Source: Edaphobacter sp. (GTDB lineage: Bacteria; Acidobacteriota; Terriglobia; Terriglobales; Acidobacteriaceae). From it: a stretch of DNA of 64,000 nt. Every line of letters starts with the position of its first letter. The first letter of the stretch is position 1. Below the pieces are notes generated by a model. That model saw only the letters and a list, made by a program, of their open reading frames with translations, was not told the DNA's origin and searched no databases. The stretch lies in NCBI RefSeq assembly GCF_028283685.1, contig NZ_JAPWKF010000009.1, positions 62,001 to 126,000 on the forward strand, in the 5' to 3' direction. Shown one piece after another: positions 6,984 through 29,392 of the stretch. A program made the translations under genes and the position numbers.

Positions 6984-7139
6984 GCTTCCCATTTTGAAAT
7001 TCATGTCGCAAAAAGCTGCATGAATGGCTTGAACCTGTCCGGCGGGTGCTTCAAGGTAAGGGCACACCACACTTGTTGCGCGAACAGTTGTGAAGATTCG
7101 ACGAGGGTGTGGTTGCGCTGTGCCAAGGAGAAAACGGGA

Positions 7140-7886
7140 ATGCAGGTCTTGATCGTGGAAGATGATGCTGCGTTGGGGCTGTTTCTGGAGAAGGGGCTGA
7201 AGCTGGAGGGCCACGAGGTGGAGCGGGTCGGTGATGGCGAGGCGGCGCTGGAGTATCTGCGCGTCCGCCAGCCGGACCTGATGGTGCTGGACCTGAGCCT
7301 GCCGAAGAAGGACGGCATCGAGGTACTGGAGGAGATGCGCGGGCAGGTGACGGGCATGGCGGTGCTGGTACTGACGGGCAGGAGCATGGTGGAGGATCGT
7401 GTGCGCTGCCTGAACCTGGGCGCGGACGACTGCCTGCTGAAACCGTTCAGCTTTCATGAGCTGACGGCGCGCTGCCGGGCCTTGCTGCGGCGCAAGGACC
7501 GTTACGCCGATCCCATGCTGCGGCAGGGGGACGTCGAGCTGAACCGGATGGAGCGCAGGGTCAAGCGGGCAGGGCAGAGTGTCGAGCTGACGACGAAGGA
7601 GTTTCACCTGCTGGAGTACCTGATGCAGCGCGCCGGGCGTTGCGTAGGGCGTGGGGAGCTGTTGCGCGAGGTGTGGCAGATGTCGCCGGACGCGGGCACC
7701 AACGTGGTGGATGTGTATGTGAATTACGTGAGGAAGAAGCTGGGCGCGGCGACGTCGGAGCAGGGCGACGGCCACTCGGTGATCGAGACGGTGCGCGGCG
7801 AGGGGTATCGCGTGAGTCTGACGGCGGGGAAGAAGGCAGTGGCGAGTGTGAGCTTCCTGACGCCGGCGGCGGTGGCCGGTGTTTAG
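7140..7886 (+). CDS. OmpR-family response regulator (receiver plus winged helix)
   Basis: A 248-residue two-domain regulator. The receiver domain (1-115) has the acidic pair Asp8-Asp9, phospho-acceptor Asp51 in VLDLSLPKKDG and the conserved Lys101 in LLKPF. The C-terminal winged-helix DNA-binding domain (about 125-230) shows VELTTKEFHLLEYLMQRAG and NVVDVYVNYVRKKL, typical of OmpR/PhoB proteins. The start at 7140 has AAGGAG nine bases upstream; the frame is open 40 codons further but without protein-like sequence. The gene overlaps the next one by eight bases. No full sensor kinase is nearby; only a HisKA-like miniprotein follows. Its place directly upstream of the flagellar activator suggests a role in motility control, which is inference. 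Confidence 0.92.
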   Translation: MQVLIVEDDAALGLFLEKGLKLEGHEVERVGDGEAALEYLRVRQPDLMVLDLSLPKKDGIEVLEEMRGQVTGMAVLVLTGRSMVEDRVRCLNLGADDCLLKPFSFHELTARCRALLRRKDRYADPMLRQGDVELNRMERRVKRAGQSVELTTKEFHLLEYLMQRAGRCVGRGELLREVWQMSPDAGTNVVDVYVNYVRKKLGAATSEQGDGHSVIETVRGEGYRVSLTAGKKAVASVSFLTPAAVAGV

Positions 7887-8145
7887 CGCGCAGGGGGAGC
7901 AGGGGCTGGTGGAACGGATCGATGAGGTGCTGCATGATCTCTCGCAGCCACTGACGGTGTTGCAATGCCGGCTGGCGCTGGGCGAGATGGATGGGAAGCC
8001 GGAGTCGATGCGGGCGGCGATCAGCGCGGCGCTGAGCGAGTGCAGGCGGATCAACCGCTCCGTCGAGGCGATGCGCGAGGTGTTGCTCGCCTCCGCGAGT
8101 GGAGCGACGCATGAGGCGGCGATGGCGGTTGCTGCGGCTCGGTGA
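7879..8145 (+). CDS. HisKA-only (dimerisation/phosphotransfer) miniprotein
   Basis: An 88-residue protein starting at a GTG that overlaps the end of the response regulator gene by eight bases, so translation is probably coupled. LVERIDEVLHDLSQPLTVLQ matches the H-box region of histidine kinases (HD-L-x-QPL, candidate phospho-histidine His19), and the rest forms the second helix of a HisKA hairpin. There is no ATP-binding HATPase domain, sensor or membrane segment. It could relay phosphate to the neighbouring regulators, accept it from an orphan kinase, or act as a kinase inhibitor. The protein is small and its function is inferred only from this motif and context. Confidence 0.7.
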   Translation: MFSAQGEQGLVERIDEVLHDLSQPLTVLQCRLALGEMDGKPESMRAAISAALSECRRINRSVEAMREVLLASASGATHEAAMAVAAAR

Positions 8146-8195
8146 GCCGGGAATGAAGTGTGGGAACGAGTTGGGCTGACAGACGGAGGATTGCG

Positions 8196-9428
8196 ATGGA
8201 GCAGCGAGGGATGGCCGGAACATTTCAGGATGTGGCGGCGATGAGGACGGTGGTTCTGGCGAGTGCGGATGCGGCGCTTCGTTCGCGGCTGCGCAGCTCG
8301 CTGACGGGTTTGCGTTGGGAGGTGTACGAGGCGGCAGGTGGAGCGGAGGCTCTCGAGCGGCTGGAGCGCGAGCGGCCGGAGGCACTGATGGTGGACAGTT
8401 GGCTTCCCGATCTGGAGGCGGGTGAGTTTGTCGGGCAGATTCGCACGATGTTTCCCGCGGTGGAGCTGATCGGGATGGATGGAGGTGTGGAGCATTCGGT
8501 GCGCAGCCCCCGACGACATGAGCTGCTGCATGCGCTGCGCGAGGCGCAGGACGCTGGAGGAAGCGATACCGCGGCGTGGAGAGTGGCTCCGGTCGCGGTT
8601 CCCACTGCCGCGCCGATGGGGGATGTTGCTCGTCGCACCACGCGAGAGAGCCTGCCTGCGATGACGATGCTGCTGCCGGAGATGGTGGGCGCGAGTGCGC
8701 CGATGAGCGAGCTGGCTGAGCTAATCAGGCTTGTAGCGCCGCGTACGGCGACGGTGCTGATCGAAGGGGAGACGGGAACAGGCAAGGAGGTTGTGGCGAA
8801 GGCGATCCACAAGCTGAGCGAACGCGCGTCGAAGCCGTTTGTGGTGCTGAACTGCGCGGCGATCCCGGAGTCGCTGCTGGAGGCGGAGTTGTTCGGTCAC
8901 ACGCGCGGAGCGTTTACCGGCGCGGTGCAGTCGCGTACCGGGCGCATCGAAGCGGCGCATGGCGGGACGCTGTTTCTGGATGAGATCGGCGAGATGCCGC
9001 TGGCGCTGCAGGCAAAGATGCTGCGCTTCCTGGAGTATGGGGAGTTGCAGCGGGTGGGCGACAACGAGACGATGCGCGTGGATGTGCGGGTGGTGGCGGC
9101 GACGCATCAGCCGCTGGAGAAGAGGTCGGAGGAGGGAAGCTTCCGGCTGGATCTGTATCACCGGCTGGCGGTGTTTCCGGTGGAGGTTCCACCGCTGCGC
9201 GAGAGGATGGAGGATCTGCCGATGCTGGCCGAGCACCTGCTGGCAGCCCTTGGGCAGCGGGCACCACGCAAGCATCTGCACGCAGATGCGCTGGAGAGGC
9301 TGCGGGGACATCACTGGCCGGGCAACGTGCGCGAGCTGATGCATGTGCTGGAGCGTGCGGCGATTCTTTCGGCGGATCGCATGGAGATCGGCGCGGACGA
9401 GATCCGCTATCGCCGGGCGACGCGTTGA
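8196..9428 (+). CDS. Sigma-54-dependent flagellar activator without a DNA-binding domain
   Basis: About 410 residues. Residues 1-115 look like a degenerate receiver: the aspartate in LMVDSWLPD is kept, but the acidic pair and conserved lysine are missing. The AAA+ domain (about 165-400) is complete: Walker A GETGTGKE (near 190), GAFTGA sigma-54 contact loop (near 238), Walker [14 protein letters not shown] (near 258), R-finger region and sensor [10 protein letters not shown]. The protein ends about 25 residues after sensor II, so the usual Fis-type helix-turn-helix is absent, as in Helicobacter FlgR. The start at 8196 has GGAGGA five bases upstream. It lies just before the flagellar cluster, where three -24/-12 promoters occur, so it is the likely activator of those operons. 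Confidence 0.92.
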
Positions 9429-9541
9429 GGACTGAGGCTGCCGGAGTCGGTGAACGATAAACTTGCCCGCAGAGGTACTGATGACCGGCTGCGATGTGGC
9501 CGATCTTCTGGATAAACACAACCAGGTTCATTCGCTTAGAG
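9429..9541. other. Gap before the flagellar promoter
   Basis: A short non-coding stretch between the activator gene and the terminator/promoter region of flgB. No gene, convincing promoter or repeat was recognised in it. Confidence 0.4.
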
Positions 9542-9568
9542 CGCTCTCATCCGAGGGCGTTTTTTTTT
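9542..9568 (+). terminator. Hairpin plus T-run ending the regulatory block; also holds a conserved 14-mer
   Basis: CGCTCTC, ATCC, GAGGGCG form a 7-bp stem with one G-T pair, followed directly by nine T residues, a classical intrinsic terminator for the upstream regulator genes. The same bases contain CGCTCTCATCCGAG (9542-9555), which recurs with one mismatch before the fliK promoter at exactly the same distance from the -24 element, so the sequence may have a second, regulatory role. Confidence 0.7.
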
Positions 9569-9583
9569 GGCGCGTGGAGTGCA
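9567..9583 (+). promoter_or_regulatory. Sigma-54 (-24/-12) promoter of flgB operon
   Basis: TTGGCGCG-N4-GTGCA matches the sigma-54 consensus, with the invariant GG at 9569-9570 and GC at 9581-9582 separated by exactly ten bases. The predicted start (about 9594) lies just before the GAGGAG ribosome site of flgB, giving a very short leader. The activator gene immediately upstream supports it. Confidence 0.75.
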
Positions 9584-9608
9584 TATGTCCATTGCAGAGG
9601 AGCTAACC

Positions 9609-9968
9609 ATGCAGGTGACAACCGCATTGAGTGAGGCGCTGGGCCGCTACCTGGACCTGACGAGCGAACAGATGAAGCTGACGGCGGGGAACCTGGCCAA
9701 CGTCGACACGCCGGGGTTCAAGACGCAGGGCTTCGACTTCGAGCAGGAGCTGGCGCGCCAGATGAGCACGCCGTCGGAGGCGGGGTTTACGGCCGCGGTG
9801 GCGCAGGAGGTCGATGGGCTGGTGGCGAGGCCGGATGGGAACAACGTGTCGTTGGACCGGGAGGGGATGGAGCTGGCGAAGGCGCAGCTGAAGTTCCGGA
9901 TGGGGATCTCGCTGCTGAAGCATGAGTACTCGACGGTGATGAGTGCAATTCACGCGGAGACGAAGTAG
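9609..9968 (+). CDS. flgB: Flagellar proximal rod protein FlgB
   Basis: A 119-residue rod protein. It has the family's N-terminal amphipathic helix and the rod/hook signature LTAGNLANVDTPGFKTQGFDF near residues 20-40, ending with the C-terminal helix that packs in the rod (FRMGISLLKHEYSTVMSAI). FlgB forms the first rod segment on the MS ring and is exported by the flagellar type III system, so it has no signal peptide. The ATG at 9609 is chosen for GAGGAG seven bases upstream; in-frame ATG 9585 or TTG 9567 would overlap the sigma-54 promoter. It is the first gene of the flagellar cluster, two bases before flgC. Confidence 0.93.
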   Translation: MQVTTALSEALGRYLDLTSEQMKLTAGNLANVDTPGFKTQGFDFEQELARQMSTPSEAGFTAAVAQEVDGLVARPDGNNVSLDREGMELAKAQLKFRMGISLLKHEYSTVMSAIHAETK

Positions 9969-9970
9969 CT

Positions 9971-10462
9971 ATGAATCTTTTTGGAGTGATGGATGTAAGT
10001 GCGTCGGCGTTGAAGGCCGAGCGTGTGCGCGCAGAGGTGGTGGCCGCCAACATGGCGAACGCGGAGACGACGCGGACGGCGGACGGCGGACCGTATCAGC
10101 GTCAGCATGTGGTGTTTTCAGCTGCGACGGAGGAGAACAGCTTTGCGCAGTCGCTGGTGGACGAGATGTCCGGTTCGGCGATGAAGCCAATGCGCAGGCT
10201 GGGGAGTTCGATCACGGCGGATACGACGGTGAATGGCGGCGTTGCGGTAACGGGCGTGATTGCCGATCAGAGTGCGCCGCTGCGGCGGTATGACCCGCAG
10301 CATCCGGATGCGGGCGCGGATGGTTATGTGTCGTATCCGGACATCAACCCGTTGACGGAGATGGTGGACCTGATGGGAGCGCAGCGGTCGTATGGGGCCA
10401 ATGCGTCGGCGGTGCAGGCCGAGAAGGGCATGCTGGTTTCGTCGCTGGACATTTTGAAGTAA
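9971..10462 (+). CDS. flgC: Flagellar proximal rod protein FlgC
   Basis: A 163-residue FlgC. The N-terminal rod signature is MDVSASALKAERVRAEVVAANMANAETT, in which the usual ANxxT motif is kept, and the C-terminus has the conserved PDINPLTEMVDLMGAQRSY and a final helix. It polymerises with FlgB in the proximal rod. The length is slightly above the common 135-150 residues because of an insert around residues 45-60. It follows flgB by two bases and precedes fliE by 22. Confidence 0.94.
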   Translation: MNLFGVMDVSASALKAERVRAEVVAANMANAETTRTADGGPYQRQHVVFSAATEENSFAQSLVDEMSGSAMKPMRRLGSSITADTTVNGGVAVTGVIADQSAPLRRYDPQHPDAGADGYVSYPDINPLTEMVDLMGAQRSYGANASAVQAEKGMLVSSLDILK

Positions 10463-10484
10463 CGAAAGAAAACGGAGGAGAGAG

Positions 10485-10814
10485 ATGAGCGTTGCGGGAA
10501 GTCTGACGAGTGCGGTGACACAGGCGATGGGATCGGCGATGACGGATGCCATCACGGATACGAAGACGAGTGCTGGCGGTGGAACGACGGATGGGACGCC
10601 ATTTGCCGGACTGCTGCAATCGATGGTGGCGCAGACTGGGGAGCTGGATCGCAAGGCCTCGGATGCGGTGACCGGAGTGATGAACGGATCGGGCACGGAG
10701 ATTCACGATGCCATGATCGCAACGCAGAAGGCGGATATGGCGTTCGAGCTGGCACTGCAGGTGCGTAACAAGGCCGTGGGCGCCTACCAGCAGATGATGA
10801 GCATGCAGTTTTAG
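10485..10814 (+). CDS. fliE: Flagellar hook-basal body protein FliE
   Basis: A 109-residue FliE. The N-terminal half is Ser/Thr/Gly-rich and flexible, and the C-terminal half carries the family signature: VTGVMNGSGTEIHDAMIATQ, then KADMAFELALQVRNKAVGAYQQMMSMQF, the helical part that joins the MS ring to the rod. GGAGGAGAG precedes the ATG. FliE is the rod adaptor secreted first. It sits in the usual order flgB-flgC-fliE-fliF. Confidence 0.92.
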   Translation: MSVAGSLTSAVTQAMGSAMTDAITDTKTSAGGGTTDGTPFAGLLQSMVAQTGELDRKASDAVTGVMNGSGTEIHDAMIATQKADMAFELALQVRNKAVGAYQQMMSMQF

Positions 10815-10854
10815 ACCGTTGTGAACGGCACCGAAGCAAAAAACTTTTTGCGGA

Positions 10855-12648
10855 TTGAGTGAGGCGATGGCAGAGACAGAAGATCGGCAGACAACGGGGC
10901 TGCAGGCGGTCGAGCGGACGGTAAGTTCACCCCTGGGGGTAGCAGACAGAGTGACGCGGGTCTTTGCGATGCTGCGCGAGCGGGTGATGGGGCTTTCGCC
11001 GGCGCGGCGGACATGGCTGACCGCTGGAGTGGTCTTTGTCGCGGCGATGGCGGCGGCGATCGCCTGGTATGCGGGACGAACGGATTGGAAGCCGCTGTTC
11101 AACGGGCTTGAGGGCAAGGACGCGCAACAGGTCTCGCAGGAGCTGTCGGCGGCTGGCATTCCATTTCGTCTGGCGGAGGGAGGCGCGATCGAGGTGCCAT
11201 CGGAGCAGCTGAGCAAGGCGCGGATGGAGGTTGCGGTGAAGGGGATGCCGCAGAGTGGACGGCTGGGTTTCGAGCTATTCGACAAGCCCAACTGGGTAGG
11301 CAGCGAGTTCGACGAGAAGGTCAACTATCAGCGCGCTCTCGAGGGAGAGCTGGAGCACACGATCATGACGCTGGCGGCGGTGCGTTCGGCTCGTGTGCAC
11401 CTGGTGCTGCCGGAGCACTCGCTGTTTACGTCGGAGGATCGCGCGGCGAAGGCCTCGGTGGTGCTGAAGCTGAAGCGCTCTTCGCTGAGCGATGAGCAGG
11501 TGGAGGCGATTCGGAACCTGGTGGCGGGGGCGGTGGACTCGCTGAGTCCGGAGAACGTGGCGCTGGCGGATGCGGATGGACGTGTCAGCTTCAAGCCGCG
11601 TTCGCAGACGGGAATGGAGGCGGACGCCGAGCAGGCGATGGAGTCCAAGCTGGTGGCGATGCTGGAGCCGCTGGCCGGGCGCGACAACGTTCGCGCGACG
11701 GTAAATGTGAGCTATGAGCAGGGCACGGAGGAGCACACTGACGAGATTTACGATCCGACACAGTCGGCGACGCTGAGTCTGCAGAAGAGCGAGCAGACGC
11801 AGACACAGCCGGTGCGGGCGACGGGAGTTCCGGGGACGGCGAGCAACTCGCCTGCGGGTGCGCCTGCGGGAGCGGTGCAGGGGTCGCAGGCGGCAGCTGC
11901 GCCGGGAACGCCGCCTCTGCTGCAACGCGAGGCGCTGCCGGTGTATCCGCAGCAGAATGCGGGAGCGGGCCAGAGCCTGCGCCAGGAGAATGGCACCTAT
12001 GGTGTGACGAAGCACATGGTGCATGCCGAGCTGGCGCCGGGCAGGGTTCGCCGGGTGACGGCGGCGGTGCTGGTCAACGATCGTGGGCTGATGGAAGGAA
12101 CGGGGAAGAACGAGCACAGGGTATGGCATGCGCGCAGCGCGGACGAGATGCGTCGGCTGGAGCAGCTGGCGCAGGCTGCGGTTGGGTACGACTCGCGGCG
12201 TGGGGACCAGGTGGTGGTGGAGAACGTCAGCTTCGACGGGAATGCGCCGCAGGTCAAGCCTCCGGTGGTGGAGCAGCTGATGGAACAGGCCCGCACGCTG
12301 GCGGGAACGCAGCCCGGGCTGGTGCGGTCGCTGGTGATCGGAGCGCTGGGTGTGTTGCTGCTGCTCTTAGTGCTGCGGCCAATGACGAAACAGATGGCGG
12401 CGGCATTGAAGGAGCCGCGAATGTTGAGTGCAGGGGAACAGATGCCTGCGTTGGAAACATCGGTGGTGGAGAGCGGGATGTTTCCGCCGGTGGTCACGGA
12501 GGCATTACCGGAGCCGTTGAGAAGGAAGGATGCGATGCAGCAGCGTGGAATCTACGAGCAGGTGGCAGAGCATATTCGTCGTGAACCGGCACAGAGCACG
12601 CGGCTGTTGGAGGCGTGGATCGGATCGGGAGAGGACGCGGAGGTTTAG
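10855..12648 (+). CDS. fliF: Flagellar MS-ring protein FliF
   Basis: A 597-residue FliF. The first membrane segment is about residues 55-75 (TWLTAGVVFVAAMAAAIAWY). Ring-building motifs 1-3 follow in the periplasm (for example DWKPLFNGLEGKDAQQVSQEL and ARVHLVLPEHSLF), with a Gly/Pro/Ala-rich disordered loop around 310-370. A second membrane segment (about 490-508, SLVIGALGVLLLLLVLRPM) leads to a cytoplasmic tail that binds FliG. It forms the MS ring that houses the export gate. The start is uncertain: TTG 10855 or ATG 10867, neither with a well-spaced Shine-Dalgarno site. The last bases lie two before fliG. Confidence 0.94.
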   Translation: MSEAMAETEDRQTTGLQAVERTVSSPLGVADRVTRVFAMLRERVMGLSPARRTWLTAGVVFVAAMAAAIAWYAGRTDWKPLFNGLEGKDAQQVSQELSAAGIPFRLAEGGAIEVPSEQLSKARMEVAVKGMPQSGRLGFELFDKPNWVGSEFDEKVNYQRALEGELEHTIMTLAAVRSARVHLVLPEHSLFTSEDRAAKASVVLKLKRSSLSDEQVEAIRNLVAGAVDSLSPENVALADADGRVSFKPRSQTGMEADAEQAMESKLVAMLEPLAGRDNVRATVNVSYEQGTEEHTDEIYDPTQSATLSLQKSEQTQTQPVRATGVPGTASNSPAGAPAGAVQGSQAAAAPGTPPLLQREALPVYPQQNAGAGQSLRQENGTYGVTKHMVHAELAPGRVRRVTAAVLVNDRGLMEGTGKNEHRVWHARSADEMRRLEQLAQAAVGYDSRRGDQVVVENVSFDGNAPQVKPPVVEQLMEQARTLAGTQPGLVRSLVIGALGVLLLLLVLRPMTKQMAAALKEPRMLSAGEQMPALETSVVESGMFPPVVTEALPEPLRRKDAMQQRGIYEQVAEHIRREPAQSTRLLEAWIGSGEDAEV

Positions 12649-12650
12649 AG

Positions 12651-13739
12651 ATGGCGGCACAGGCGACGATGACGATGATGCAGGGAGGGATGCGCAATCC
12701 GCTTCTGCTTCCCGAGGAGGCAGGCTTTGCGGCGGCGGAGCTGCCGGGGCTGCGGAAGGCGGCGATTCTGCTGGTGGCGCTGGGCGATGAGCTGGCCAAG
12801 ACGCTGCTGCAGTCGCTTTCGGAGAACGATGTTCACCGGGTGACGGAAGAGATTACGAGGCTGGGAGAGATTCCGGCGCAGCAGCTGACGCAGGTGATGA
12901 CGGAGTTTTACGGTCTGCTGGAGACACAGCAGTATATGGTGCGCGGAGGGCCGGACTATGCCATGCGCGTGCTGACGGAGGCCTTCGGAGCATCGAAGGC
13001 GGAGAGCCTGCTGTCGCAGGTGAAGCGCATCCGCGAGCGTGCCAACAGCAACATGGCAGTGCTACAGCGGATGGACCCATTGCAGCTGAGCAAGTTCCTG
13101 GAGAGCGAACATCCGCAGACGATCGCGCTGGTGCTGGCGCACGTTGATGCCAAGCGCGGATCGACGATCCTGATGGAGCTGGAGCCGGTTCTGCGGGTGG
13201 ACGTGGTGAAGCGGCTGGCGGAGATGCGGCACTTCTCGGCGGAGATGGCGCAGAAGGTGGCGTTTGTGCTGCATCGGCGGATGGAGGGCATGGGGAGCGG
13301 CGCGAGGAAGTCATACTCGGGCTTCAAGGCGGTGGCCGAGCTGCTGAACCGCATCGACCAGACGGCGAGCAAGACGATTCTTGAAGAGATTGAACAAAAA
13401 GAGCCGCAGCTGGCGATCGGCATTCGCAACCTGATGTTCACCTTTGAGGATCTGCTGACGGTACCGCAGGAGAGCATTCGCGAGCTGTTGGCCGCCTGTG
13501 ACAAGCGCACGCTGGCGGTGGCGCTGAAGGGAAGCCGCGACAATCTGCGGGCATGGCTGTTCAAGGCGATGAGCTCTCGCGCGGTGGAGATGCTGCAGGA
13601 GGATATGGACGTGATGGGGCCGGTGCGGATGAAGGAGGTCGGCGTGGCGCAGCAGGAGATGCTGGCGCTGGCGCGGCAGCTGGAGGCGGAGGGCAGGATG
13701 ATGCTGAAGCTGGGGGCCGACGATGATCTCGCCGTTTGA
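12651..13739 (+). CDS. fliG: Flagellar motor switch protein FliG
   Basis: A 362-residue switch protein. The N-terminal domain, which binds FliF, has LRKAAILLVALGDELAKTLL. The middle armadillo domain includes the EHPQTIALVLAHV motif. The C-terminal domain has the charged torque helix region VAVALKGSRDNLRAWLFKAMSSRA, in which the residues that contact MotA lie. The start at 12651 has GGAGG eight bases upstream; an in-frame start at 12615 lies inside fliF. It overlaps fliH by 17 bases, indicating coupled translation. Confidence 0.95.
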   Translation: MAAQATMTMMQGGMRNPLLLPEEAGFAAAELPGLRKAAILLVALGDELAKTLLQSLSENDVHRVTEEITRLGEIPAQQLTQVMTEFYGLLETQQYMVRGGPDYAMRVLTEAFGASKAESLLSQVKRIRERANSNMAVLQRMDPLQLSKFLESEHPQTIALVLAHVDAKRGSTILMELEPVLRVDVVKRLAEMRHFSAEMAQKVAFVLHRRMEGMGSGARKSYSGFKAVAELLNRIDQTASKTILEEIEQKEPQLAIGIRNLMFTFEDLLTVPQESIRELLAACDKRTLAVALKGSRDNLRAWLFKAMSSRAVEMLQEDMDVMGPVRMKEVGVAQQEMLALARQLEAEGRMMLKLGADDDLAV

Positions 13740-14403
13740 GGAGAGGGAGAGCCTGGACGAGGCGCTGGTGCTGCCGTTGGAGTTCGTCTCGCTGGATGAA
13801 CCGGAGGAGGATGGTCTGCTGCTGGCAGCGGAACGCGAGGCGATGTTGCGGGAGCGAGCTGCGGCTCTCGAGAGCAGGATCGTGGAGGTGCAGGAGGAGG
13901 CGCAGCGGACGCTCTCGGAGGAGCATGACCAGGCAAAGTCAGAACGGGATGAACTGGTTGAGATGCAGGAGCGAGAGCTTGCTGCCGTGAGGCAGCAGGT
14001 GGCCGCGGCGGTGGCGGCCTTCGAGCGGGAGCAGGATCGTTATCTGCGCGAGGTGGAGCATGAGGTGGTCTCGCTGGCGCTGGCGATTGCGGGGCAGGTG
14101 TTGCATCGCGAGTCGGTGATGGACCCGATGTTGCTGCGTGGTGTGGTTCGCGTTGCGCTGGAGAAGGTGGCGGCGGAGAACAACGTGACGCTGCGGGTGC
14201 CTGCGGGGCAGGGTGAGACCTGGCGCAGCGCCATGATGGCGGAGGAGAGGACGGGCGTGAACGTCGTCGAGGATCGCCAGCTGGGGAGTGGAGATGCTGT
14301 GCTGGATACGGCCGTAGGCAGGATTGGACTGGGGATCACGGAGCAGCTGAGAGAGGTGGAGCGCGGCTTCTTCGATCTGCTGGCCAAGAGGCCGGCGCGA
14401 TGA
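13723..14403 (+). CDS. fliH: Flagellar export ATPase regulator FliH
   Basis: A 226-residue protein. Its long Glu/Arg/Ala-rich coiled coil (about 30-115) and C-terminal globular part (LALAIAGQVLHRESVMDP, then the region ending TEQLREVERGFFDLL) fit FliH/YscL. FliH dimers bind FliI and hold it near the export gate until needed. It overlaps fliG upstream by 17 bases and fliI downstream by four (ATGA), so the three are co-translated. Sequence alone gives moderate similarity; the position between fliG and fliI makes the call safe. Confidence 0.9.
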   Translation: MISPFEERESLDEALVLPLEFVSLDEPEEDGLLLAAEREAMLRERAAALESRIVEVQEEAQRTLSEEHDQAKSERDELVEMQERELAAVRQQVAAAVAAFEREQDRYLREVEHEVVSLALAIAGQVLHRESVMDPMLLRGVVRVALEKVAAENNVTLRVPAGQGETWRSAMMAEERTGVNVVEDRQLGSGDAVLDTAVGRIGLGITEQLREVERGFFDLLAKRPAR

Positions 14404-15707
14404 GCGGAACACTTGCGCCTTACTTTGCCAGGCTGAAGCGGCGACCGAGTTGGCGCTGGAGTGGCCGGGTGGTGGAGGCCAATGGGCAGACGCTGGAGTC
14501 GGAGGGGCCGCTGTGCTCGGTGGGCGAGTGCTGCGAGGTGATCGATGCGGAGGGGGAGCATCACGCGGCGGAGGTGATCGGCTTTCGGGGGAGGCATGTG
14601 CTGGCGATGCCTTTGGAGGCGACGCGGGGCATCCGCTACGGCGATGCGCTGGAGGCGATGGGAGAGTCACCGACGATAGCGGTCAGCGAAGAGCTGCAGG
14701 GGCGCATTCTGAATGCGGTGGGCGATCCTCTGGATGGCATTGCTGCACCGAAGTCGGCGATGCGCTGGCCGCTTGACGGCAGGGTGCCGGACCCGATGGA
14801 GCGGCTGCCGATTCGCGAGGCGCTGGGCACGGGGGTTCGTGTGATCGACGGTCTGTTGACGGTGGGTCGTGGGCAGCGCATTGGGATCTTCGGCGGATCG
14901 GGCGTCGGCAAGAGCACGCTGATCGGCATGATGACGCGCAACACGCAGGCGGACCTGACGGTAGTGGCGCTAGTGGGCGAGCGCGGACGCGAGGTGCGTG
15001 AGTTTGTGGAAGATTCGCTGGGAGAGGAGGGGCTGCGCCGGTCGGTGGTGCTGGTATCGACCTCGGACCAGAGCCCTCTGCTGCGGATGCGGGCGGCGCA
15101 GGCGGCGACGGCGGTCGCGGAGTTCTATGCGGCGCAGGGACGGCATGTGCTGCTGGTGCTGGATTCGCTGACGCGCTATGCGATGGCGGCGCGCGAGATC
15201 GGGCTTGCGGCGGGGGAGCCTCCGACGAGCAAGGGATATACGCCGTCGGTCTTTTCGCGGCTGGCCAAGCTGGTGGAGAGGACGGGCAACTTCGAACGGG
15301 GAAGCATCACGGCGTTCTACACGGTGTTGATGGAGGGCGATGATCAGCAGGATCCGATCGTGGATTCGGTGCGTTCGTATGTCGATGGCCACGTCGTGTT
15401 GTCGCGCGCGCTGGCTGGGGCGGGACGGTACCCGCCGGTGGATGTCGTCGATTCGCTGAGCCGGTTGATGCCTGCGGTGACGACGCGGAGGCACCAGGCG
15501 CAGGCGACGACGGCGCGCAGTCTGCTGGCTGCCTATGCGCGATCGGAAGACCTGATGCGCATTGGAGCGTATAAGGCAGGGACCGATCCCGAACTGGATC
15601 GCGCCATTCGCGCGTTGCCGGTGTTGAAGCGGTTTTTGGAGCAGGAGAGCATGGAGCGGCCGACACTGGACGATGCGATCGAGCGGCTTTGCGCGATGGA
15701 GCTATAG
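14400..15707 (+). CDS. fliI: Flagellum-specific ATPase FliI
   Basis: A 435-residue ATPase of the F1-beta/type III secretion family. Walker A GGSGVGKST (about 165-173), the conserved VALVGERGREVREF just after it, Walker B HVLLVLDSLTRYAMAAREIGL (about 250) and the GEPPTSKGYTPSVFSRL signature are all present. It energises substrate unfolding and release at the cytoplasmic face of the flagellar export gate together with FliH and FliJ. The ATG overlaps the fliH stop as ATGA. fliJ starts three bases after its stop. Confidence 0.96.
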   Translation: MSGTLAPYFARLKRRPSWRWSGRVVEANGQTLESEGPLCSVGECCEVIDAEGEHHAAEVIGFRGRHVLAMPLEATRGIRYGDALEAMGESPTIAVSEELQGRILNAVGDPLDGIAAPKSAMRWPLDGRVPDPMERLPIREALGTGVRVIDGLLTVGRGQRIGIFGGSGVGKSTLIGMMTRNTQADLTVVALVGERGREVREFVEDSLGEEGLRRSVVLVSTSDQSPLLRMRAAQAATAVAEFYAAQGRHVLLVLDSLTRYAMAAREIGLAAGEPPTSKGYTPSVFSRLAKLVERTGNFERGSITAFYTVLMEGDDQQDPIVDSVRSYVDGHVVLSRALAGAGRYPPVDVVDSLSRLMPAVTTRRHQAQATTARSLLAAYARSEDLMRIGAYKAGTDPELDRAIRALPVLKRFLEQESMERPTLDDAIERLCAMEL

Positions 15708-15710
15708 GGA

Positions 15711-16181
15711 ATGCGCGATCGACTGAAGGGGCTGCAGCGGCTGCTGAAGGTGTATGAGGGGATCGAGGGAATGCGCGAGTCGGAGGCGCATCGCGCCAAC
15801 GGCGAGGTGCGCGTGGCGGAGATGGCGGTCGGACAGCAACAGGAGATCGCCCGCGAGGCGACGGGTGCTGAGCGTGAGAGCCGGGCTGAGGCGGAGCGCC
15901 TGGGCTGGTTCGATGCGACAGCTTCTCTGCAGATGTCGGCGGTCAAGGAGGCGCGCCTGAATCATGTCCTGCAGGAGCGTGCCCGTGCCGGTGATATCGC
16001 AAACCGGAGGCATCGTGACAGCAGGGTGTGGAGCGAGAAGATGAAGACGCTGGTGGAAGGTGTGCAGTCCGATGTGGTCAGGCAGGACGAGCAGCGCCTT
16101 CAGTCGCTGGCGGAGGAAGGCCATCTCTTTCGTCTGCAAAGGGGCCGCCGGCCGAAGCGGGATGGCGCGACGCCGAGATGA
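15711..16181 (+). CDS. fliJ: Flagellar export protein FliJ
   Basis: A 156-residue, highly charged and almost wholly helical protein (two long antiparallel coiled-coil segments, about 1-75 and 80-140). Low sequence identity is normal in this family, and the call rests on length, coiled-coil character, the FliJ-like start (LKGLQRLLKVYEG) and its place directly after fliI. FliJ is the central stalk of the export ATPase and escorts chaperones. A second sigma-54 promoter begins right after its stop. Confidence 0.8.
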   Translation: MRDRLKGLQRLLKVYEGIEGMRESEAHRANGEVRVAEMAVGQQQEIAREATGAERESRAEAERLGWFDATASLQMSAVKEARLNHVLQERARAGDIANRRHRDSRVWSEKMKTLVEGVQSDVVRQDEQRLQSLAEEGHLFRLQRGRRPKRDGATPR

Positions 16182-16184
16182 GGA

Positions 16185-16227
16185 CGCTCTCATCTGAGCC
16201 GGGACGTCTTTGGCATGGCGGTTGCAG
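16185..16227 (+). promoter_or_regulatory. Sigma-54 promoter of fliK with upstream conserved element
   Basis: TTTGGCAT-N5-TTGCA has the invariant GG at 16212-16213 and GC at 16224-16225, ten bases apart, and is an almost ideal -24/-12 promoter. Upstream, CGCTCTCATCTGAG (16185-16198) repeats, with a single change, the 14-mer before the flgB promoter. In both cases the element starts exactly 27 bases before the -24 GG. TAGGAGG for fliK lies just downstream. Confidence 0.8.
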
Positions 16228-19614: not shown

Positions 19615-19661
19615 GCATGCGGCAGGGGATGAAGAATCCCTAATCTTTCCCCCGTTCTAAT

Positions 19662-19677
19662 TGGCGTTTCGATTGCA
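19662..19677 (+). promoter_or_regulatory. Sigma-54 promoter of fliL
   Basis: TGGCGTTTCGATTGCA, preceded by T, has GG at 19663-19664 and GC at 19675-19676 exactly ten bases apart. It lies 30 bases before the fliL ATG and just after the flgE stem-loop, so it would start a second transcript for fliL and the export-gate genes. The upstream 14-mer seen before flgB and fliK is only partly matched here (ATCCCTAATC at the same distance). Confidence 0.7.
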
Positions 19678-20262: not shown

Positions 20263-20604
20263 ATGGCGGATGTGGAGCTGGTCAAGGCCGAGGTGGAGGT
20301 GGAGATGGAGCAGAGGATCGACGCTGCGAAGGCCGAGCCGCCCGCCGGGCCGGGGATGAAGCGGATCGAGAAGCACATGGCGTGGCCTGTGCTCTCCGTG
20401 CTTGAGATGTCGGTCAGCGCGGAGATTCCGCTGGAGGACTTCAAGGTGCGCGATCTGCTGGCGCTGGAGAGCGGACAGCTGATCGCAAGCGCATGGCCGG
20501 AGACCGAGGATGTGACGGTAATGGCCGGAGGCGTGCAGGCGGGCTGGAGCGAGTTCGAAGTGGAAGACCAGAAGCTGCTGGTGCGACTGACGCGGCTGGC
20601 GTAA
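20263..20604 (+). CDS. FliN-like SpoA-domain switch protein (second copy)
   Basis: A 113-residue protein. After a charged N-terminal segment (1-38) it has one SpoA (FliN/FliM C-terminal) domain: WPVLSVLEMSVSAEIPLEDFKVRDLLALESGQLI and a hydrophobic strand ending DQKLLVRLTRL. It occupies the place where Bacillus has fliM-fliY, between fliL and fliO, whereas the true fliM and fliN lie 7 kb downstream. It could form heterodimers with FliN in the C-ring, or be a derived FliY/FliN that only helps the export apparatus. The ATG follows GGGGAGCGGGGAACG. A role other than switching is possible. Confidence 0.8.
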   Translation: MADVELVKAEVEVEMEQRIDAAKAEPPAGPGMKRIEKHMAWPVLSVLEMSVSAEIPLEDFKVRDLLALESGQLIASAWPETEDVTVMAGGVQAGWSEFEVEDQKLLVRLTRLA

Positions 20605-28151: not shown

Positions 28152-28442
28152 ATGGCCGAAGAGACGGCGACGACGACGCGGATCGACATGCTGAACGATA
28201 TCGATCTGGATGCAACACTTCGATTCGGTTCACGCGAGATGACGCTGGAAGAGGTCCTGAACCTGGGGCCGGGTTCGGTGATTGAGCTGGATAGGCACAT
28301 CAGCGAACCGGTGGACCTGGTGGTTGGGGATCGGATCGTTGCGCGGGGAGAGGTGGTCGTGATGAGCGGCAACTTTGCGCTGCGTGTGACAGAGGTTGCT
28401 GCGCCGCAGCTGCGGCTGGAGAGTATCCGATGCTTTTTGTAA
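28152..28442 (+). CDS. fliN: Flagellar motor switch protein FliN
   Basis: A 96-residue protein that is essentially one SpoA domain: DIDLDATLRFGSREMTLEEV-LNLGPGSVIELDRHISEPVDLVVGDRIVARGEVV is the canonical FliN signature (the VDVxVxxxxxG, LGxGSVIELD, VDLxVxxxxxAxGEVV pattern). It forms the lower C-ring with FliM and docks FliH. GGAGAACGAG precedes the ATG. The final 13 bases overlap the start of the MshEN-like gene. A second SpoA protein lies at 20.3 kb, so the C-ring of this organism may have an extra component. Confidence 0.93.
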   Translation: MAEETATTTRIDMLNDIDLDATLRFGSREMTLEEVLNLGPGSVIELDRHISEPVDLVVGDRIVARGEVVVMSGNFALRVTEVAAPQLRLESIRCFL

Positions 28443-29392
28443 ATCGAAGGGCAAGTCTCGCTGCAGTGCCTCCGCAGGCATCGATGGCGGACGCGCTCAC
28501 CTGGGCGACAGGGACCTATGAGCTTCCTCAGGCAGCGTTAAACCCGCCGGTGGTGACGACCACGAAGCGTCTTTGCGGCAGCGTGCTATGCACCACATCG
28601 AGGATCTCGCCATTTCGCAGCCGGAAGCGGCCGATCTTTGAAGAGCAATGGGGGTGCAGCGGGCGGTGTGTGCTGGCCATGGTGCAGGCCGCGGTCCGGC
28701 GTGAGATTGCGGGCGGCCTGGAGACCTCGGTCGCGCAGCATCGTCATCGTCTGCCGCTGGGGCTTCTGATGCTGGGGCAGGGATGGATTACGCAGGCGCA
28801 GCTGCAGTATGCGCTGGCGGTGCAGAAGCTGCATGGCGGCCGTATCGGCGACTGGCTGGTGGCGGAGTGCGGCGTGGCCCCGGAGCATGTGACGCGCGGC
28901 CTGAGCCTGCAGTGGAGTTGTCCCGTGCTGACGGCACGCGGATTTTCTCCGGCGGCGATGGCCCTGATTGTTCCGAAGCTGTTTGTCGAGGAGTTCGGCC
29001 TGGTTCCACTGCGAATCGCGGGATCGCAGCTGCTCTACGTGGGCTTTGAGGAGCGGCTGGATGCCTCGGCGGCGCGGGGGCTGGAGCAGATGATGAATCT
29101 GAAGGTGGAGAGCGGGCTGGTGGGGACACTGGAGTACAGCACCATCCGGCAGAGCCTGCTATCGCAGCTTGTGGCGCCTGCGAAGTGTGAGGTGGCGGCC
29201 GATGCAGATGCGCTGGCTGCGCGGATCACCGCGATCCTGGAGCAGAAGCAGCCGATCGGAGCGAAGGTGGTGCGGATGCATCGCTACCTGTGGCTTCGCC
29301 TGTGGCTGGAGAAGGCCTCGCGCGCGAGCAGGGGCGCAGCACCCCGGGACCACGAGGACATTCTGGATTACATCTTTACCGTGGGACGATAG
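28430..29392 (+). CDS. Stand-alone MshEN-like protein, putative c-di-GMP effector of the flagellar cluster
   Basis: A 320-residue protein that overlaps fliN by 13 bases. Residues 110-132 (LGLLMLGQGWITQAQLQYAL...Q) and 139-161 (IGDWLVAECGVAPEHVTRGL...Q) are two tandem copies of the LG-x-x-L-x-x-x-G...L-x-x-x-L-x-x-Q motif that binds c-di-GMP in MshEN/GspE_N domains. The PILZ-like alpha/beta part (about 162-250) follows, as in the N-terminal domain of pilus ATPases. The ATPase domain itself is absent; residues 1-85 are unrecognised and 250-320 are helical and basic. MshEN domains normally control type II secretion and pilus ATPases. Here a soluble c-di-GMP sensor for the motor or export apparatus is inferred from context. 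A strong terminator follows. Confidence 0.75.
   Translation: MLFVNRRASLAAVPPQASMADALTWATGTYELPQAALNPPVVTTTKRLCGSVLCTTSRISPFRSRKRPIFEEQWGCSGRCVLAMVQAAVRREIAGGLETSVAQHRHRLPLGLLMLGQGWITQAQLQYALAVQKLHGGRIGDWLVAECGVAPEHVTRGLSLQWSCPVLTARGFSPAAMALIVPKLFVEEFGLVPLRIAGSQLLYVGFEERLDASAARGLEQMMNLKVESGLVGTLEYSTIRQSLLSQLVAPAKCEVAADADALAARITAILEQKQPIGAKVVRMHRYLWLRLWLEKASRASRGAAPRDHEDILDYIFTVGR

Follow-up and report, generated by a model that had tools for sequence, protein, structure and literature searches.

Some sigma-54 activators, designated type Ic, have no DNA-binding domain; they form a known minority, with FlgR of Helicobacter and Campylobacter, CtcC and FleT as examples, and a paper cited in this context calls Helicobacter pylori FlgR enhancer-independent in its title (PMC3162934). 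By what means such proteins select promoters is not clear for the known cases, FlgR and Rrp2 among them. For the Borrelia rpoS promoter, BosR has been described as binding beside the -24/-12 region and the activator Rrp2 as having no specific DNA binding, with recruitment proposed; BosR appears there as a Fur-family protein with the direct repeat TAAATTAAAT and one target gene (PMC3037356). A later paper revises this role and presents BosR as an RNA-binding protein that acts on rpoS RNA stability (PMC11109971). Two half-sites 11 base pairs (bp) apart near promoters are described for two regulators of the OmpR family, CtrA, whose full site in alphaproteobacteria is TTAA-N7-TTAA and which also controls flagellar genes (PMC6180460), and HP1043 of H. 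pylori (PMC5253667). Here, we describe a stretch of 64,000 nucleotides (nt) from the 4.79-Mb genome of an Edaphobacter sp. (positions 62001-126000 of contig NZ_JAPWKF010000009.1, which is contig C3 of genome G000; hereafter the window), in which flagellar sigma-54 promoters carry a bipartite element at a fixed distance from the -24 box, and in which an activator without a DNA-binding domain is encoded beside a response regulator that may bind this element.

Three promoters in the window have predicted sigma-54 -24/-12 boxes on the forward strand, those of flgB (9568..9583), fliK (16211..16226) and fliL (19662..19677). Their boxes, TGGCGCGTGGAGTGCA, TGGCATGGCGGTTGCA and TGGCGTTTCGATTGCA, hold GG and GC ten bases apart in a TGGC/TTGC-like context, and relatives have GG-N10-GC in equivalent positions, in a search that required both pairs. 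A search for rpoN gave one match in the own genome and a match in 55 of 61 genomes. Upstream of each promoter, on the same strand, lies the unit TNA-N8-TNA, whose right half reads CTNAY and which ends 16-17 nt before TGG (spacing is counted throughout as the nt between the end of the element and the T of the TGG in the -24 box). It reads TTAGAGCGCTCTCAT at flgB (9536..9550), TGAGGACGCTCTCAT at fliK (16179..16193) and TGAAGAATCCCTAAT at fliL (19630..19644), the T-N-A of the left half standing exactly 11 bp upstream of that of the right half, at positions -15 and -4 of the element. The fliL promoter, for which the first-pass annotation had reported a partial match only, in fact carries the full conserved core. 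At fliK, the stop codon TGA of fliJ (16179-16181) doubles as the left half-site.

Two promoter sets were compared. In both, sigma-54 sites were selected on box score only, so that the spacing between element and box is not built into the result, and related sequences count as separate rows, so that the statistics do not rest on independent observations. The same-genus set contributed 26 flgB sites, from the own genome and 25 relatives, 26 fliK and 23 fliL sites, all scoring at least 14.5 (rows are absent at fliL for L117, L124, L125 and L126, at flgB for L126 and at fliK for L125). The named set holds the best 80 of 430 confirmed loci and shares assemblies with the same-genus set; its 63 flgB, 78 fliK and 53 fliL picks were reduced to 39, 71 and 39 by a score of at least 15 and a distinct upstream sequence. 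Within the genus, CTNA(T/C) stands at a spacing of 16 or 17 at 25/26 flgB, 22/26 fliK and 23/23 fliL promoters, and the full element at 21/26, 22/26 and 22/23 (shuffle averages at most 0.01). The corresponding numbers for the full element in the named set are 20/39, 49/71 and 25/39, and dinucleotide shuffles of both sets gave on average at most 0.04 full elements and never more than one. When sites were required to match at least three of the four right-half positions, the left half being unused in the selection, the left-half T was present at 30/30 flgB, 32/33 fliK and 34/34 fliL near sites and at 41/43 distant fliK sites. Some promoters have a spacing of 26 or 27, about one helical turn farther; at fliK of L112 an equally scored sigma-54 site gives a spacing of 16 instead. 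Distant family members have TGACAATGCTCTAACC-like versions at fliK, and no convincing sigma-54 site or element was found in most distant fliL regions. Judged by its sequence, the element is spread across the predicted flagellar sigma-54 promoters of Acidobacteriaceae.

Classical sigma-54 enhancers lie about 100-150 bp upstream and are flexible in position. The element described here, at a near-constant 16-17 nt before TGG, is not of this kind: provided that transcription starts 24 nt after GG, as expected, it would occupy about -58 to -44, closer than an enhancer of the classical looping kind would allow.

The element was found within a longer similarity. Two 14-mers, CGCTCTCATCCGAG at 9542-9555 and CGCTCTCATCTGAG at 16185-16198, differ by a single base and each start at a distance of 27 nt from the GG in the -24 box downstream (9569-9570 at flgB and 16212-16213 at fliK), and the left parts of the first and second 14-mer are contained in the flgB and fliK elements, respectively. 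This equal-offset match is unusual, yet the 14-mer is without a further partner in the genome. The pattern CGCTCTCATCYGAG occurs there twice exactly and six times with one mismatch, and with up to two mismatches 76 times in total, compared with 39 for the backward-read pattern. With the 27-nt offset to GG-N10-GC and up to three mismatches, 14 matches were found (two without mismatch and 12 with exactly three) against three in the backward control, and the same genome-wide search at up to two mismatches returned nothing besides the flgB and fliK copies. In the window alone, 14 matches at up to three mismatches face a shuffle mean of 25.7, which is no enrichment. Among 16 same-genus relatives (L087 on a short contig), the 1,500 nt scanned held no copy of the fliK 14-mer at up to two mismatches.

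The flgB 14-mer lies in an intrinsic terminator (9538..9568, forward strand), with an 11-bp stem at 9538-9563, nine T directly after it and the T run reaching 9568; the hairpin folds with -14.8 kcal/mol (z -3.5), overlaps the element and runs into the -24 box. Folded alone, the fliK copy pairs GATGAG with CTCATC and cannot form the flgB stem. The outer CGC and YGAG of the flgB-fliK identity are terminator stem at flgB and seemingly coincidence at fliK. The 14-mer was rejected as a functional unit, since relatives lack it at fliK and its 3' letters at flgB belong to the terminator stem. The first-pass annotation was thus right about the place of the two copies, their single difference, their 27-nt distance to the -24 box, the hairpin at flgB, the failure of the fliK copy to form it and a position too close for a usual enhancer, as nearly all same-genus sites attest. 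Its suggestion of a shared regulatory meaning holds insofar as there is a meaning beyond the terminator, a fixed place at sigma-54 promoters and an accompanying activator that lacks a DNA-binding domain, but this meaning does not reside in the 14-mer as such.

The gene before flgB (8160..9428, forward strand) encodes a sigma-54 activator with a degenerate receiver, an AAA+ domain with GAFTGA and no DNA-binding domain, and is thus a type Ic activator. Pfam models for Sigma54_activat (9.6e-70) and the AAA lid match, the receiver match is weak and below cut-off, and the Pfam search returned no helix-turn-helix (HTH) family, the protein ending after the AAA lid. All 19 activators in the alignment have GAFTGA unchanged. 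An AlphaFold2 model consists of a receiver fold, a low-confidence linker and AAA+, and nothing more (mean predicted local distance difference test 70; predicted template modelling score 0.44), so that Pfam, alignment and model concur with the earlier call of an HTH-less protein. Inspection by eye of the activator ends in 69 named loci revealed no HTH in the 67 that were readable (L177 has a gap, L185 was left out).

Upstream of the activator lies the gene for an OmpR/PhoB-type response regulator (7020..7886, forward strand), the candidate binder of the element. It consists of a receiver (Response_reg, 1.4e-26) and a winged-helix domain (Trans_reg_C, 1.1e-24), reaches no equivalog cut-off, and has a nearly invariant DNA-reading helix, TN[VI]VDVY[VI]NYLR[RK]KL. 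Linkage was tested in those 65 named loci where the activator is present with 2 kb or more of sequence before it, and the regulator precedes the activator in all 65; the other 15 of the 80 fall outside the count owing to contig ends or because no activator was found near flgB (L193, L194). Between the two genes, a small open reading frame (ORF) with a GTG start (7879..8145, forward strand, 88 amino acids) matches HisKA at 4.3e-5 and 23.9 bits (cut-off 26.9) and has a histidine phospho-acceptor-like domain but is too short to hold a kinase ATPase domain as well; a similar small HisKA-like ORF is found at this place in 24/65 named loci. The regulator and the activator also adjoin in G008, G017 (twice), G022, G020, G030 and G009, and in G011 lexA, regulator and activator stay together about 112 kb away from the flagellar cluster, whose flgB still carries the element. 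G008 and G017 are otherwise without an intact flgB of the window type.

The element recurs outside the three promoters of the window. A matrix for element plus promoter, built from 126 sites, gave 36-38 bits for these three and at most 15.3 in the rest of 104 kb. On another contig of the own genome (C9), where flagellar genes were located by family searches and 62 kb were scanned, only two sites exceeded the reporting limits, upstream of flgF (sigma-54 score 18.9, element score a modest 7.9) and fliD (17.0 and 13.9), both genes being named from reading of their translations; for both, 17 was the best element spacing among 5-44. The first-pass annotation would have been abandoned had its motif accompanied no other sigma-54 promoter in the genome, which is what was found for the 14-mer but not for the core, given flgF and fliD. 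In 12 regions around regulator or activator genes away from flgB, the matrix matched twice at the set threshold, in L271 and L278, with 17 as the best spacing among 2-47, and a third, weaker match appeared in L273 at a lowered threshold. In all three, a sigma-28-like gene with sigma-70 regions 2, 3 and 4 follows the element and a sigma-54-like box, the regulator lies next to them, and the activator is present in two of the three. L278, where no activator match lies within 20 kb, combines the regulator with the small HisKA-like ORF, an arrangement that favours the regulator as the protein bound to the element.

These observations suggest a promoter type for the flagellar genes of Acidobacteriaceae in which the -24/-12 boxes would be joined by a bipartite activator site some 51 bp upstream of the expected start and on a constant face of the helix. 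The regulator of the OmpR/PhoB type would bind TNA-N8-TNA as a dimer and bring the HTH-less AAA+ activator to the promoter-bound sigma-54 polymerase, so that regulator and site would replace the missing DNA-binding domain and the distant enhancer; phosphorylation may have a part in this, and at flgB the site would also happen to be part of the terminator that ends the preceding gene. Of the explanations that are left, a partner protein with putative binding to the element is the best, and that the regulator encoded next to the activator is this partner and supplies the activator's contact with DNA appears to us somewhat more probable than the opposite. We put forward more tentatively, at a little under even chances, that the whole is a split enhancer-binding protein, in which separate but linked ATPase and DNA-binding proteins would be joined at a site near -51, possibly with the small phospho-acceptor protein between them. 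Such a split architecture might then resemble a promoter-proximal sigma-70 activator, a comparison we regard as just as tentative.

Like FlgR, CtcC and FleT, the activator is an AAA+ protein without a DNA-binding domain, and it shares with FlgR and FleT also the flagellar context; unlike the situation with FlgR, each promoter class studied here shows an element at a constant upstream position, and a second regulator, with a DNA-binding domain, is genetically linked to the activator. The nearest precedent is BosR/Rrp2/RpoN, where a second protein binds DNA beside a sigma-54 promoter, as our regulator would; here, in contrast to BosR, the candidate is of the OmpR/PhoB type and several operons share one fixed spacing. 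The 11-bp distance between the half-sites is that of OmpR/PhoB-type tandem sites, and equals the one given for CtrA and HP1043. Activating CtrA sites are found close to -35 and HP1043 works with the housekeeping sigma factor, whereas the promoters here are sigma-54 promoters. In the titles and abstract beginnings that were covered, with few subscription journals among them, no description of a TNA-N8-TNA element was apparent. This family supplies a clear cis-element, a candidate partner next door and natural variants in which the hairpin is lost, the spacing is shifted by one turn or the activator gene lies elsewhere, which together make the question of promoter choice testable.

Among the other explanations, a conserved terminator at flgB combined with a chance copy at fliK has almost no probability in our estimation. 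The hairpin and T run are kept at 19/26 same-genus flgB promoters and the exact 14-mer is not kept at fliK, as this explanation would have it, but where the hairpin is gone (7/26, counting L112, in which it is present but displaced) CTNA(T/C) still stands at a spacing of 16 or 17 in 6/7, L112 being the exception with 27. The terminator-only reading was rejected for this persistence of the core without a hairpin; a terminator would moreover account for flgB only, and not for the core at fliK, fliL, flgF and fliD, of which the conservation at fliK and fliL contradicts it directly. Very unlikely, too, is that the activator works enhancer-free from solution, with the element serving for repression or fine-tuning: HTH-less activators without an enhancer are known from FlgR (PMC3162934), but a promoter-proximal site kept so regularly in front of several operons is more in line with a required step than with occasional repression, which is an argument only. 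Slightly less improbable, and still a poor candidate, is an extra contact of the sigma-54 polymerase itself, through the alpha C-terminal domain or sigma-54, without a separate activator. The constant distance from -24 and the place just upstream of the boxes would suit such a contact; sequence-specific halves rather than plain A+T richness, and exceptions one helical turn away, speak against it. So does the low element score, -17.5 to -42.3 at spacing 16/17, of five strict-consensus sigma-54 sites elsewhere in the genome (L289-L293), although the strict pattern occurs five times against four in the control, so that most of these may not be promoters and the negative control is weak. The own genome offers too few sigma-54-like sites close to its other activators for these to serve as a control.

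More serious, if still unlikely, is a real activator site that is bound by another protein, encoded elsewhere or being the LexA next door. A number of observations count against the regulator, the first two of them also in favour of this alternative. Direct (head-to-tail) repeats are usual for OmpR/PhoB regulators; at our sites direct and inverted readings score alike, with the inverted one higher at flgB (direct/inverted half-site match means in five groups: 0.36/0.67, 0.40/0.51, 0.39/0.54, 0.49/0.47 and 0.44/0.39), so that the direct geometry is not favoured and the site is equally readable as an inverted repeat. A comparison group was made up of 13 flagellar loci that belong to other clusters or families; in it, L254 has the perfect palindromes TTAGAAGCTTCTAA and TTAGAGACTTCTAA (at 10504 and 13671 as oriented) before the sigma-54 boxes of fliK and fliL, at spacings of 21 and 7, and no such regulator in the examined stretch of the cluster. 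L267 keeps lexA beside the regulator/activator pair, and the linkage could therefore be an inherited neighbourhood. No convincing sigma-54 site or element was found in many distant flgB regions, and nine of the 12 regulator/activator regions gave no matrix match, including L276 with a similar sigma-28-like ORF. LexA is encoded by the next gene in 52/65 named loci, but the other 13 lack it, and so do the regions of L271, L273 and L278, in which element and regulator both occur. LexA is disfavoured as the binder; within the examined regions, no other regulator with comparable linkage was seen.

Of the remaining loci of the comparison group, L265 has a near match at a spacing of 8 and no regulator in the examined stretch, and in L258 and L266 the activators have a Fis-like HTH, judged by eye, and the sites scanned hold no such element. 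L260-L264 are second flagellar clusters in some same-genus genomes, with regulator and HTH-less activator, the regulators being only 39-48% identical. No element-plus-promoter was found in these clusters, so that the presence of regulator and activator side by side is in itself no predictor of the element. In those of L260-L264 that were read at that end, a separate activator with a Fis-like HTH apparently lies just before flgB.

Two further features of the flagellar cluster in the window were observed. It contains two FliMN_C (FliN-like) genes, at 20263-20604 and 28152-28442, and the gene after the second of them (28430-29392) matches the model for the MshE-type motif that binds cyclic di-GMP, above cut-off (3.1e-11).

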